Positions 26,212-29,939 of a stretch of 49,679 bases of DNA are shown here, piece by piece; position 1 is the first letter of the stretch; every line of letters starts with the position of its first letter. The DNA is from Protofrankia sp. CiT1 (GTDB lineage: Bacteria; Actinomycetota; Actinomycetes; Frankiales; Frankiaceae): assembly GCF_917627385.1 (NCBI RefSeq), contig NZ_CAKJTL010000069.1, positions 1 through 49,679 of the forward strand, written 5' to 3'. The position numbers were made by a program, and so were the translations under genes. A model generated the notes under the pieces. That model was not told where the DNA came from. It was given only the letters and a program-made list of their open reading frames with translations, and did not search any database.

Positions 26212-27048
26212 TCACGCCACCCAGTGATAGTCGTGGAGGTGACCGCTCGCGACCAGCCAGATGTAGAAGTCGGTTGCCATGATCCATAGAAGGCTCGCCC
26301 AGGCCCACAGCAGATGACGCCGGTTGAGCGCCGAAATCCCCCGCCACAGCCGCTGGCGGGCCGGATGCGCGGACAGGGTCCGCAGCCCACCTCCACACAG
26401 GTGCCGGAAGGAATGGCAGGAAAACGTGTACAGGCCGAGAAGCACCACATTGGCCGCAAGAATGCCGCTACCGACGCCGATGCCGAAACCGCCGTCGAAG
26501 CTGAACGCCTGGACAGCCTCGTAGGTGAGCAGACACACGAAGAGCCCACCGAAGTAGAGGAAATAGCGGTGCACGTTCTGTAGCAGCAACGGGAACCGGG
26601 CCTCACCGCTGTACCTGCGCCGGGCGTCGGGGACCGCGCAGGCCGGCGGAGCCCACCAGAACGAGCGGTAATACGCCTTCCGGTAGTAGTAGCAGGTGAG
26701 CCGGAAGCCGAGCGGGAAGAGCAGAATCAGGATGGCGGGTGAGATCCAGGGGATGTCGCCGAGCAGCCCGGAGCCGAGCGCGTCGGCCGGGCAGGAGTCG
26801 GTCAGGCACGGCGAGTAGAACGGCGACAGGTACGGATCCGCGTAGTAGTTGCCGTTGCGGAACGCCGCCCACGTCCCGTAGGCGACAAAGCCGGCGAGCA
26901 CGGCCACCGTGACGACCGGGGCCACCCACCACCGGTCCCGTCTCAGGCTGGGCTGGATGATCCTCGCTCGGGCCGCGCCGCCGCTGGGAGCGGCGGCTCT
27001 GGCGGGGCCCCGATTGTCGGGAGGACGGGCATCCGTCTGCGTCGGCAT
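26212..27048 (-). CDS. sdhC: succinate dehydrogenase cytochrome b-type membrane subunit
   Basis: A 278-residue membrane protein with about five hydrophobic helices, beginning with WWVAPVVTVAVLAGFVAYG and ending with LLWAWASLLWIMATDFYIWLV. Candidate haem-ligand His residues are in LLQNVHRYFLYFG and TFSCHSFRHLCGG. It would anchor the SdhA-SdhB dimer and reduce quinone. The N-terminal 35 residues are basic and Pro/Ala-rich. GAGGAGC precedes ATG 27048. It is a long single-subunit anchor; no separate sdhD gene is present, consistent with the fused cytochrome b type seen in actinobacteria. Confidence 0.85.
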   Translation of the reverse strand: MPTQTDARPPDNRGPARAAAPSGGAARARIIQPSLRRDRWWVAPVVTVAVLAGFVAYGTWAAFRNGNYYADPYLSPFYSPCLTDSCPADALGSGLLGDIPWISPAILILLFPLGFRLTCYYYRKAYYRSFWWAPPACAVPDARRRYSGEARFPLLLQNVHRYFLYFGGLFVCLLTYEAVQAFSFDGGFGIGVGSGILAANVVLLGLYTFSCHSFRHLCGGGLRTLSAHPARQRLWRGISALNRRHLLWAWASLLWIMATDFYIWLVASGHLHDYHWVA

Positions 27049-27209
27049 GGTGCTCCTCGGTTTCCTGGGGCCGCAGGCGCGGTCAGGTGCGTTCGCGGTG
27101 CTGGGCCCCCGGCGTGTTCTCGCTGGCTGTTGCTCTCCTTGGCGTGTTCTGGTCGGTTGGAGGGACCGACGACAGGCCGCGAGTTATCGCGCGGCCCGTC
27201 GTCTCATGC

Positions 27210-27587
27210 TCACACCCGGACGCGGCGTCGGCGGCGCGGCGACACGGCGCGATGCCGCTGCCACCCGCCGGCGACCCCCTCGTCGTCGCATTCGGGCTGG
27301 AACTCCGGTTCGCCCTGGCGGGCCGGTACGAACACGGGTTCGTAGCGGGTTGAGCACGCTGGGCCGTCGGCCGTGCCGGCCGGGTCCAGACCGTTCGCGC
27401 CGCTGCGGGTCATGGTCTCAGCTTCAAGATCGTCAAGGTCTTCCAGGACGCGACGGACATCCGCCTCGAGCCGGCCCGCCATTCTTGAACTGGGCGCGTG
27501 GCAGCGCACATGGTGCACATGACGTTGCGCTTCCTGTACTGCTCTGATCACGGCGAGAAGCTCGTCCCGTAGGCTTGTCGACTGCAC
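27210..27587 (-). CDS. hypothetical 125-residue protein
   Basis: A plausible small gene read from GTG 27587 with GGAGG 9 bases upstream. The first 70 residues are a charged helix-rich segment (RDELLAVIRAVQEAQRHVHH, ADVRRVLEDLDDLEAETM) that could form a coiled coil. The rest is Gly/Pro-rich and ends in a very basic RRRRRVRV tail. It lies upstream of sdhC on the same strand, separated by 161 bases. I do not recognise a family. Codon bias supports coding, but the evidence is moderate. Confidence 0.5.
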   Translation of the reverse strand: MQSTSLRDELLAVIRAVQEAQRHVHHVRCHAPSSRMAGRLEADVRRVLEDLDDLEAETMTRSGANGLDPAGTADGPACSTRYEPVFVPARQGEPEFQPECDDEGVAGGWQRHRAVSPRRRRRVRV

Positions 27588-27760
27588 GATTCGCCACCTC
27601 CGTGGTTCCGGCTGCCGGCCGGCGACATTCCAGACAGGTATCGGTACCCATCTCCACTGCCGAGCCGGTCACATCAATGACACATTACGTTCACGCAACA
27701 GTATGATCGACGGGCGGAAGGTTGGCCGGAGACGCAGACCTTCGACCGCGCCGGAGCGCC

Positions 27761-27836
27761 GGAAGGCCGTGTCCAGATGCGTCAGAGACCCGCTCGCGCG
27801 GGTCATTGAGCCGGACAGCTGGCTTCCGGAACACGC
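27761..27836. repeat. palindromic element remnant with internal hairpin
   Basis: GACCCGC (27787-27793) pairs with GCGGGTC (27798-27804). The right part (27809-27836, GCCGGACAGCTGGCTTCCGG then AACACGCC) matches the right half of the element at 23258-23318. The left end GGCCGTGT near 27765 is its imperfect inverted partner. It lies 32 bases beyond the 3' end of the kinase-like gene. Confidence 0.55.
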
Positions 27837-27867
27837 CGTAGTGACGGCGAGCGCCTGGGCGGCCGGG

Positions 27868-28737
27868 CTACCGGCTGATCAGGTCGTCCAGATGGGCCCG
27901 CACGGCGCCAGCGACGTCCATCTCGTCAGGGGACCAGGACAGTCCGGCGAGCGTGAACAGACAGGCGACGACCCGGGCGTACCGGCCGGTCGGGGCGTCC
28001 AGCTCAGGGAAGGCCGCACGAAGGCGGCTGGCGGTCCGGGGCGCGTGCCGCAGCGCGGTGATGTACAGGTTCGCGACGCCGATGCCTGAAACGCTGCGGC
28101 CCCAGTGCTCCCAGTCAATGATCGAAAAACGCGGCGCGGTGATGTTGCCCCAGTGCAGGTCCAGATGCTCGGTGGCCGCCGGGCCGGGGGCAACGTCAGC
28201 GGGCAGCTCACCGACTCTGGCATGGATAAGATGGGCGAGCTGTTCGGGGGAGTAGGCCCACAGCTTCCGCTCGGTGGGGGTGTCCGCGAGCGCGTCGACC
28301 GAGGCACGCAGGTCGGCCCACCAGGCGTCCGGGAGGTCGGGCTCGCCGGACAGGTACTGCCCGGCGCTGTAGGCGTCCGCCGGCACGACCGTCGAGTCGG
28401 CCGCGAACGTGAGCAGCTCAGCGCGCACGGACACCGGGACCGGGTCGGGATGGGTCCATTCGGTCTCAGCGAGCAGTGTCGGCTTGGCGACGCCGGACAG
28501 GCTGGCGGCATCGTGGGTGCCGGTCCAGACCTCGCGGTCCATGTCGGACTCGATGAACGCGGCGACCCGCAGCCACGCGGTGGCGCCGTCGTGTGTGGCG
28601 GGCCCCGCGATGACGGCGTCGGAACCGCTGGCCCGTCCGGAGCCGAGAGGCCGTATCCCGAGTTGTCGTGCGCCCTCGCGGTAGATCTCAGTGAGCCACG
28701 CCGCACCGTCGATGCTGACCGGCAGCCAGCGGATCAC
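27868..28737 (-). CDS. APH-fold phosphotransferase next to radical SAM gene
   Basis: A 289-residue protein with the C-terminal hallmarks of the aminoglycoside phosphotransferase/choline kinase fold. The catalytic loop is HLDLHWGNI, followed by IIDWEHWG, the metal-binding Asp and a typical Trp/Glu. The N-terminal lobe is divergent (WLPVSIDGAAWLTEIYREGA). I chose GTG 28737 because it overlaps the radical SAM stop (GTGA); an upstream GTG/ATG at 28788 would overlap that gene by 55 bases. The tight coupling with a peptide and a radical SAM enzyme suggests it phosphorylates the product or an intermediate, or confers self-protection. The real substrate is unknown. Confidence 0.7.
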   Translation of the reverse strand: MIRWLPVSIDGAAWLTEIYREGARQLGIRPLGSGRASGSDAVIAGPATHDGATAWLRVAAFIESDMDREVWTGTHDAASLSGVAKPTLLAETEWTHPDPVPVSVRAELLTFAADSTVVPADAYSAGQYLSGEPDLPDAWWADLRASVDALADTPTERKLWAYSPEQLAHLIHARVGELPADVAPGPAATEHLDLHWGNITAPRFSIIDWEHWGRSVSGIGVANLYITALRHAPRTASRLRAAFPELDAPTGRYARVVACLFTLAGLSWSPDEMDVAGAVRAHLDDLISR

Positions 28738-29651
28738 GCGGTTCCGTCTGTTGGACGCGGTTCGCAGTCCGGGGTCTTCGGCTTGCATTGGGACTGGGTG
28801 GGGCTGCAGGCGGTGCTCGCCTTGGGACCGCAGATGTCCGGGCCACAGCCGGAGGCGGCGGTCACCGTGCGCGCGGCGTCGAGCCGGGCGACCTGGGACC
28901 GGAAGGGCGCGCCAGCGAGGACAGCGGCCAGCCCGTCACGGACGTTACCGGCGGCGGCGCGGCGGGTGAAGACGCATGGAGTCACGGTGCCGTCCGGGCC
29001 AACCGCGGCCGTGCCGTGCCCGCAGTGCCCGCAGGTGCCCGCCTCATCGTCGTGGTCGGCGGCGCGGCCGAATGGCCGGACCTGGTCGATGCTGGCGACG
29101 ACGCCGAGGGCGGTCAGGTCGTCGAACGCGGCGAGAGCCTGTTCCTCGCCGGCGGTGGCGATGATGCCGGCGCGGACCGGCACCTCTGCCGCGACGAGGC
29201 GCCGCAGCTGGGCCCGGGTGCGGGCATGGCTGCCGGCACGCCCGGTGACCTTGTCATGCCGGGCCGCGTCGTCGGCGTAGTACGAAGTCGCGACCGACAC
29301 ACCCGGGCGGACGAGCGCGTCCCAGACCACGGCGGGAAGGGCGTACAGGTTGGTGAAGACCTCGACCGCGAGGTTAGCGTCGAGCGCCGCCGCGACGAGC
29401 GCCGGGAAGTCAGGACGGAGGGTCGGTTCGCCGCCGATGAGGCAGACCTGCTCGACGCCGACGGCGGCTGCCTCGGTGATGACCGCTTCCCAGTCGGGAA
29501 GCGTCATCGTGCCCTGGCTGCCGTGTGGTGAGGAGCCGGCGTAGCAGTGAGAGCAGGCTAACTGGCAGCGTCCGGTGATCTCCAGCCAGATCAGCCGGGG
29601 CGGCTCGGCCTGGATCACCGGGTGGACAGGCCCGGGCAGCGTCACGGTCAT
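28734..29651 (-). CDS. radical SAM/SPASM-like enzyme
   Basis: A 305-residue enzyme. The radical SAM cluster motif is CQLACSHC (Cys29, Cys33, Cys36), followed by CLIGGEPTLRPDF (the GGEP motif) and a TIM-barrel-like core. The C-terminal part has CGHCGHG with GPDGTVTPCVF, and then a Cys-rich end containing CGPDIC, ACSPTQSQC and PDC, resembling the auxiliary Fe-S cluster binding SPASM/twitch region found in peptide-modifying enzymes. GGGAG is placed 7 bases before ATG 29651. The 35-codon gene lies 10 bases upstream and the kinase-like gene overlaps downstream. I infer a peptide-maturase role from context; the reaction type cannot be read. Confidence 0.8.
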   Translation of the reverse strand: MTVTLPGPVHPVIQAEPPRLIWLEITGRCQLACSHCYAGSSPHGSQGTMTLPDWEAVITEAAAVGVEQVCLIGGEPTLRPDFPALVAAALDANLAVEVFTNLYALPAVVWDALVRPGVSVATSYYADDAARHDKVTGRAGSHARTRAQLRRLVAAEVPVRAGIIATAGEEQALAAFDDLTALGVVASIDQVRPFGRAADHDDEAGTCGHCGHGTAAVGPDGTVTPCVFTRRAAAGNVRDGLAAVLAGAPFRSQVARLDAARTVTAASGCGPDICGPKASTACSPTQSQCKPKTPDCEPRPTDGTA

Positions 29652-29661
29652 GATGATCTCC

Positions 29662-29769
29662 CTACGCCGTGTTCTGATACTCGCCGACGTGGATCACGTC
29701 GTGGCGCAGCCGCCGCTCGGGGGTGGTCAGGCCCAGCAGACGCTGCCCGCCCGGCCCGCAGATGATCAT
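29662..29769 (-). CDS. 35-residue peptide gene, candidate RiPP precursor
   Basis: A short frame too small for usual gene calling. It starts MIICGPGGQRLLGL at ATG 29769 (GGTGAGAG upstream) and ends HVGEYQNTA before TAG 29662. Of its 35 codons almost all end in G or C, the pattern of the real genes here. Its stop codon is followed at once by the ribosome site of the radical SAM gene, so the two are probably coupled. It holds one Cys near the N-terminus and a Tyr near the C-terminus, possible modification sites. The role as substrate of the downstream enzyme is inference; a regulatory upstream peptide is the alternative. Confidence 0.55.
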   Translation of the reverse strand: MIICGPGGQRLLGLTTPERRLRHDVIHVGEYQNTA

Positions 29770-29850
29770 CTCTCACCGGCGGACCGGGCGATGGCAACGG
29801 TGAATTCGCCAGGCACCACTGTAGCCGGCCGGCGCCAGTCAGGCGGGCTA

Positions 29851-29939
29851 AGAGGCTCCGGCAATAGGGCACGCGCCTCGTGCCAGTCAGATGGCTGTCG
29901 AAACATTGCCCTATTGCCGAGCTATTGCCGGGCGCTCCT
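29851..29939. repeat. family I inverted-repeat element, shortened copy C
   Basis: AGAGGCTCCGGCAATAGGG (29851-29869) faces CTATTGCCGGGCGCTCCT (29922-29939). CTATTGCCG is duplicated (29911-29930). The right end encodes the last five residues and stop of hsp20. The left end lies upstream of the candidate peptide gene. Confidence 0.75.

Follow-up and report, generated by a model that had tools for sequence, protein, structure and literature searches.

Which peptide, if any, does the radical SAM enzyme of this locus act on, and what would the kinase encoded beside it contribute? The locus lies in a stretch of 49,679 nucleotides from Protofrankia sp. CiT1 (contig NZ_CAKJTL010000069.1, positions 1 to 49,679), which is called the window throughout. 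The original prediction described a tiny peptide gene, a radical SAM/SPASM-like enzyme gene and a kinase gene in one operon. In our study, the three reading frames were found to be real and at their predicted coordinates, and a fourth frame was found upstream of them. The features of the locus are as follows:

29766..29906, minus strand: 46-aa frame, N-terminal half of a split DUF397-like gene (homology to the upstream gene of L101/L004)
29662..29769, minus strand: 35-aa frame, C-terminal half of the split DUF397-like gene (collinear homology)
28734-29651, minus strand: radical SAM enzyme, whole 305-residue frame (Pfam)
28848..29651, minus strand: folded core of the enzyme, residues 1-268 (Pfam, family alignment, model, fold search)
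29544..29567, minus strand: CxxxCxxC motif CQLACSHC, residues 29-36 (C29, C33 and C36 invariant)
28974..29033, minus strand: SPASM/twitch cysteines C207, C210 and C226, predicted auxiliary cluster with an open site (invariant)
28734..28847, minus strand: C-x-P tail of the enzyme, CGPDICGPKASTACSPTQSQCKPKTPDCEPRPTDGTA, residues 269-305 and stop, proposed built-in substrate (disorder, C-x-P signature, tandem copies in relatives, partner association)
27868..28737, minus strand: APH-fold kinase, partner enzyme, likely GTG start at 28737 (fold, starts of homologues, pLDDT)
28144..28167, minus strand: catalytic loop HLDLHWGN of the kinase (H, D and N invariant in 22 homologues)

In two genomes of the same genus (L145, L146), a malic enzyme gene takes the place of the cassette in the interval that the HSP20 gene and the 125-aa/278-aa genes delimit (window 27048-29922); the cassette is therefore an element that varies between genomes and was probably acquired. 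One of these two genomes also carries hydantoinase-like genes at the variable site.

The 35-codon frame and its upstream half

The 35-aa frame had been proposed to encode a RiPP precursor on which the enzyme and the kinase act. It lies directly before the enzyme gene, its GC content by codon position is 0.69/0.44/0.94, and its TAG stop is followed by GGAGATC, a possible ribosome site, and then by the ATG of the radical SAM gene. The window contained seven ATG frames of 30-60 aa with a GC3 of at least 0.8, and by GC3 alone the 35-codon frame was unexceptional.

The closest radical SAM relative was found in L101, which is the same locus as L004, and there an intact 86-codon gene was present directly upstream of the enzyme gene. 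The window 35-aa frame aligned with the C-terminal half of the product of this gene, and the 46-aa frame (29766-29906), overlooked in the original prediction, aligned with the N-terminal half. For both alignments, the score was reached by 0 of 2000 shuffles. The two frames overlap as ATGA, the joined alignment with the intact protein was collinear, and the best non-self match of the joined sequence among 35 genomes was again the upstream gene of L101/L004 (E 6e-7). Because of this collinear homology to an intact gene of a relative, the 35-codon frame is read as one half of a DUF397-like gene split at the ATGA, and the 46-codon frame as what is left of that ancestral gene on the N-terminal side. 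The C-terminal EYQNTA, which had been regarded as a possible conserved feature of the peptide, corresponds to the GEFD/GEYDD end of the regulator-like domain.

A related small protein upstream of the enzyme in L117 matched Pfam DUF397 (PF04149) with 39.1 bits (cut-off 24), and L111 also contained a DUF397-related small protein upstream of the enzyme. The upstream protein of L101 scored 13.1 bits, under the same cut-off, and the joined window sequence gave no match to PF04149 in Pfam. DUF397 proteins are usually the partners of HTH regulators (PMC7159879). The split gene of the window aligns with such DUF397-like proteins of actinobacteria but differs from them in having no Pfam match and no adjoining HTH gene. 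It may be a true split, a pseudogene or an assembly error, and in the few loci having a DUF397-like protein, this protein may be the substrate.

Clustering of the neighbouring frames of 46 loci gave no recurrent small gene or peptide as a conserved upstream precursor; the recurrent clusters were regulators (HTH/TPR, DUF397, ATP-binding and GNAT). Genes for a GNAT acetyltransferase and an HTH/TPR-type regulator were observed beside the cassettes of L101, L111 and L117, and of L023, L086, L089 and L115, often in divergent orientation. The expected co-occurrence of the genes held for the enzyme-kinase layout, which recurs in related loci, but failed for the peptide frame, which is absent upstream in most relatives. 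The 35-aa frame was thus rejected as the precursor on the ground of its collinear homology, and its maturation by the enzyme and the kinase is extremely unlikely; it would have no precursor role and would be a broken or split DUF397-like gene.

The radical SAM enzyme family and its partner genes

The enzyme gene contained CQLACSHC, GGEP and the Cys-rich C-terminus, as predicted. The window enzyme scored 55.4 bits with Pfam Radical_SAM PF04055 (cut-off 29.5) and 24.0 bits with SPASM (cut-off 21.5); PF04055, the invariant cysteines of CxxxCxxC and the TIM barrel fold place it in the radical SAM superfamily. A match to the window enzyme was given by 59 NCBIfam models. The best 25 of the 59 all lay far below their curated cut-offs, the highest score being that of the mycofactocin maturase model with 65.3 bits (cut-off 265), and membership in a named NCBIfam radical SAM family was rejected on these 25 models. 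In the AlphaFold model, the core was mostly above 90 pLDDT. The nearest solved structures in the fold search were SkfB, SuiB, BlsE, PqqE, CteB and EpeE, and BtrN was also among the matches; SkfB, SuiB, PqqE, CteB and EpeE bear out the view of the enzyme as one of the peptide-maturase kind. A Viperin-like defence role was rejected, the similarity of the barrel being partial only.

The cysteines C207, C210 and C226 were invariant in the reference alignment of the family. The canonical second half of SPASM, CxxCx5CxxxC, was missing in this family and kept in the outgroup L026-L028, and the window enzyme, which passes the Pfam SPASM cut-off, contained the C-x-P tail in its place. No RRE was visible in the window enzyme because the model contained no domain before the barrel, which is expected if the substrate is fused. 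The maturases SkfB, SuiB, CteB and PqqE, the best fold matches, likewise combine the radical SAM barrel with a SPASM or twitch-like C-terminal part, and several of them make thioethers or other crosslinks on peptides. In these maturases the precursor is separate and an N-terminal RRE is usual, whereas the window family has no visible RRE, no conserved precursor gene and a C-x-P tail instead of the second SPASM half.

The enzyme family was found in 15 of 35 genomes of the order and 32 of 394 of the class, and in 60 of 395 and 96 of 343 genomes of the two families searched. Carriers included genomes of Actinomadura, Gandjariella and Streptomyces, and plasmids of Amycolatopsis, Streptomyces and Paraburkholderia. 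The Paraburkholderia plasmid member (L032), from outside the actinobacteria, contained a C-x-P tail and no recognised partner. The family is large, widespread in actinobacteria and apparently undescribed. The open-access literature, to which the search was confined, contained no description of a radical SAM enzyme fused to its precursor, or paired with an aspartyl methyltransferase or an APH-like kinase, as in this family, and the suggestion that the system is undescribed agrees with this.

The kinase was present with HLDLHWGN and with its GTG start (28737) overlapping the stop of the radical SAM gene as GTGA. Its model showed the APH fold, and the predicted coupling of the enzyme with a kinase of this fold is thus borne out. 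All of the catalytic residues (H, D, N and D) were invariant in 22 homologues. The best fold matches were APH(3') and AmiN. A PDB sequence search gave chance hits only, no Pfam family matched the window kinase at its cut-off, and the kinase of L083 reached 21.8 bits with PF01636 (cut-off 23.2); membership in the APH group is thus given by the fold, HxDxxxxN and the following D, with PF01636 below its cut-off. The catalytic residues and the fold are shared with AmiN, APH(3') and fructosamine-3-kinase, but the window kinase contains an Arg (WLRV) at the expected site of the nucleotide-binding Lys. A longer frame, 27868-28788, is also open from an ATG at 28788; the homologues start near residue 19 of this frame, its residues 1-20 had a pLDDT below 50, and the GTG at 28737 is the likely start. 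A JmjC/cupin-like protein of about 405 aa was repeatedly found in the vicinity of distant relatives of the window kinase, namely in L147 (the same genome as the window), L154, L168, L148, L151, L153, L155, L158 and L165, and the two may be another modifying pair. An HTH-DUF397 pair was present directly before the kinase in L147, L154 and L168.

Among the 183 loci with a complete enzyme C-terminus, the enzyme was followed by a methyltransferase gene in 92, by a second kinase family (kinB) in 48, and by a kinase like that of the window, with or without an AAA ATPase, in 21. No partner was found in the remaining 22, three of which were canonical SPASM outgroup sequences. The pairing with a kinase, which had been regarded as unusual, is therefore not so, since two kinase families follow the enzyme in 69 of the 183 loci. 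In most loci the enzyme and partner genes adjoin or overlap each other. The methyltransferase of L030, taken as the test case, matched TIGR04188, a family listed as RiPP-specific (PMC8939145), over its full length (E 7.7e-79, 265.7 bits). This commonest partner resembles the actinobacterial graspetide methyltransferase but scores under the curated cut-off of 380. In the comparison of neighbouring genes, ATP-grasp ligases did not recur as a family, and neither a protease nor an exporter was conserved. In L082, L083, L100, L179, L199, L201, L203, L206, L223, L258, L287, L290 and L300, a gene for an AAA ATPase (about 250 aa) was observed either between the enzyme and the window-like kinase or after them.

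The C-x-P tail and its association with the partner type

The tail of the window enzyme, residues 269-305, lies at the position where canonical SPASM enzymes have the second Cys block, and is predicted to be disordered (pLDDT below 50 for residues 267-305). The tails of the family hold mostly 2 to 9 C-x-P motifs, and of the 702 tail cysteines counted over the three partner classes, 97-98% belonged to C-x-P. Three or more C-x-P in the last 60 aa were found in 153 of 183 family members, whereas none of the remaining genes of these loci, about 1,144 in number, had them; four apparent non-family genes with C-x-P were family members that had escaped the filter and were not counted as exceptions. 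Two tail cysteines were invariant in the reference alignment, and part of the tail may be structural for this reason. Some tail cysteines may likewise be structural cluster ligands, because the tail starts at the canonical CxxCx5CxxxC site of L026-L028.

Internal copies within the tail, far above shuffles, were found in L231, L247, L194, L193, L209, L295 and L303, all of the methyltransferase type. The tail of L231 reads LGG-CPPNDSNDCSPANSPACNPAYGFAPASLGG-CPPNDSNDCSPANTPACNPAYGVAPVAVALGG-CPPNDSQTCNPAN and on, with LGG before each of the three copies. Tandem copies were present in the methyltransferase class only and in none of the window's kinase class. The repeated units with spacers, several of them after LGG, resemble multi-core RiPP precursors, and such units would not be expected of cluster ligands or docking arms.

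Separate genes for C-x-P peptides were also considered and rejected, the only cases being split enzyme genes. In L105 a stop codon separates the core frame from a 74-aa frame with the tail, and in L097 an insertion element has placed a transposase gene between core and tail. A possible single frame of enzyme, tail and methyltransferase in L098 was set aside because the gene carries a frameshift. A partner-less subgroup (L087, L093, L185, L190, L195, L196, L228, L230, L233, L236 and L240) contained a strongly conserved tail, C(T/A)PPQFLPxCGPCGPCVPSVxHCDP.

The tails differed with the partner. Methyltransferase tails were acidic and contained the steps D-G, D-S or D-D, as in CPPDDSNDCSPASTEACDPAY, the typical tail of the kinB class was CDPDxECxPGxPxSxCxPR, and the tails found with the window's kinase type were mostly basic with 4-8 or more C-x-P. 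Between L101 and L113, the cores were 49% identical, the tails were identical at 23 of 24 residues and the methyltransferases were 83% identical, whereas between L101 and the window the cores were 65% identical, the tails were unrelated and the partners were different. After removal of core identity, the similarity of same-partner tails was higher than in all 1000 label permutations, and in a stricter cluster-wise permutation 5 of 2000 reached the observed tail-partner value, relatedness being not fully removed in either. Among cores below 55% identity, the nearest tail named the partner in 130 of 167 cases and the nearest core in 101 of 167. Core relatedness itself predicts the partner at 95% (leave-one-out), and the cores fall into few independent clusters with one clean partner switch between close cores. 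Taken together, the sequences suggest that the tail type goes with the partner type beyond the relatedness of the enzyme core.

A substrate carried on the enzyme and the alternatives

The gene family, the partner set, the composition of the tail and its association with the partner, the tandem duplication in relatives, the disorder and the folds were read from sequence or prediction. The enzyme's own C-terminal tail is a likelier precursor than the 35-aa frame. That the locus is a two-enzyme peptide-maturation cassette, in which a radical SAM maturase bears a C-terminal core-peptide tail that is finished by the partner, has about an even chance in our view, the role of the tail as substrate being inferred. 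Against it count the L024 tail without Ser or Thr next to a window-like kinase, the restriction of tandem copies to the methyltransferase class, and the finding that no protease or exporter was conserved in the loci compared.

Two other functions of the tail were weighed against this reading. The tail may be an arm for docking or scaffolding the partner, with both enzymes acting jointly on another substrate (a peptide, a protein or a small molecule). Such an arm would agree with the disorder, with tails that differ by partner class, with the adjacent or overlapping genes and with L024, in which the tail has no Ser/Thr though its window-like kinase looks intact; but it leaves the near-universal C-x-P cysteines and the tandem copies with spacers unexplained, and no other conserved substrate gene was found in the loci compared. 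We consider it unlikely. The tail may also be a diverged second SPASM half with cysteines that ligate auxiliary Fe-S clusters, the substrate being elsewhere, as its position at the canonical CxxCx5CxxxC, the two invariant cysteines and the Pfam SPASM match just upstream would suggest. A cysteine count of 2 to 9 with variable spacing, the duplicated units with spacers, a composition that follows the partner, and a confidence below 50 next to a well-predicted core (AlphaFold does not model clusters) argue against this explanation, which is similarly improbable.

A small-molecule pathway of the nucleoside or aminoglycoside-like type, with radical SAM chemistry as in BlsE or BtrN and a self-protecting APH kinase, is consistent with BlsE and BtrN among the fold matches of the enzyme and with APH(3') and AmiN as the best matches of the kinase. 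It is very unlikely, as the neighbours of the cassettes include no further recurrent genes for making small molecules and the commonest partner is a RiPP-type aspartyl methyltransferase.

If the tail is the substrate, a mechanism can be proposed in which the chemistry, the order of the steps and the release are inferred. The flexible C-terminal C-x-P tail would be the substrate carried on the radical SAM enzyme itself. C207, C210 and C226 would hold an auxiliary Fe-S cluster and, because only these three cysteines are fixed, the cluster would have an open site that may bind a tail cysteine; for SkfB and CteB, the substrate Cys is believed to be bound by an auxiliary cluster that has such a free site (PMC8326336). 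The 5'-deoxyadenosyl radical would then crosslink tail cysteines, and the crosslinks would most likely be thioethers with residues close by. The ranthipeptide maturase PapB crosslinks the Cys-X3-Asp motifs of the Cys-rich core of freyrasin as thioethers (PMC9413430), and the acidic tails may be joined by Cys-Asp thioethers of this type. The likeness to PapB/freyrasin lies in the sequence C-x-P-D/N-D of several tails of the methyltransferase class, but the latter system has a separate precursor with no C-x-P signature, and the crosslinks of the window family are proposed only.

As a second step in the window, the APH-fold kinase would phosphorylate the tail, probably on Ser/Thr, and in relatives the RiPP-type isoaspartyl methyltransferase would act on Asp between the tail cysteines. 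The radical step would precede the methyltransferase step, because RiPP aspartyl methyltransferases mostly require an already cyclised peptide (PMC11285071). A protease encoded elsewhere may free the peptide, or the modified tail may stay on the enzyme.

Borosins of the OphMA type carry their precursor on the modifying enzyme, which thus modifies itself (PMC11285071). The same fused-precursor logic is proposed here for a radical SAM enzyme; the borosin enzymes are backbone N-methyltransferases, whereas the window enzyme has the radical SAM fold, not the borosin alpha-N-methyltransferase fold, and a swappable second enzyme encoded next door. The chances are evenly balanced that the cassettes form a new RiPP-like family across actinobacteria, a radical SAM counterpart of the borosins with a self-carried C-x-P core, sometimes several in tandem, and a swappable tailoring enzyme (the isoaspartyl methyltransferase or either of the two kinases). 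Such a system would escape precursor searches for small neighbouring genes, its core being part of the enzyme gene. With tails and partners in matching sets, the question is open to direct tests using purified proteins. If the proposal is true, crosslinked, phosphorylated or isoaspartyl peptides could be made compactly by two genes, through radical SAM chemistry on a peptide fused to the enzyme itself.
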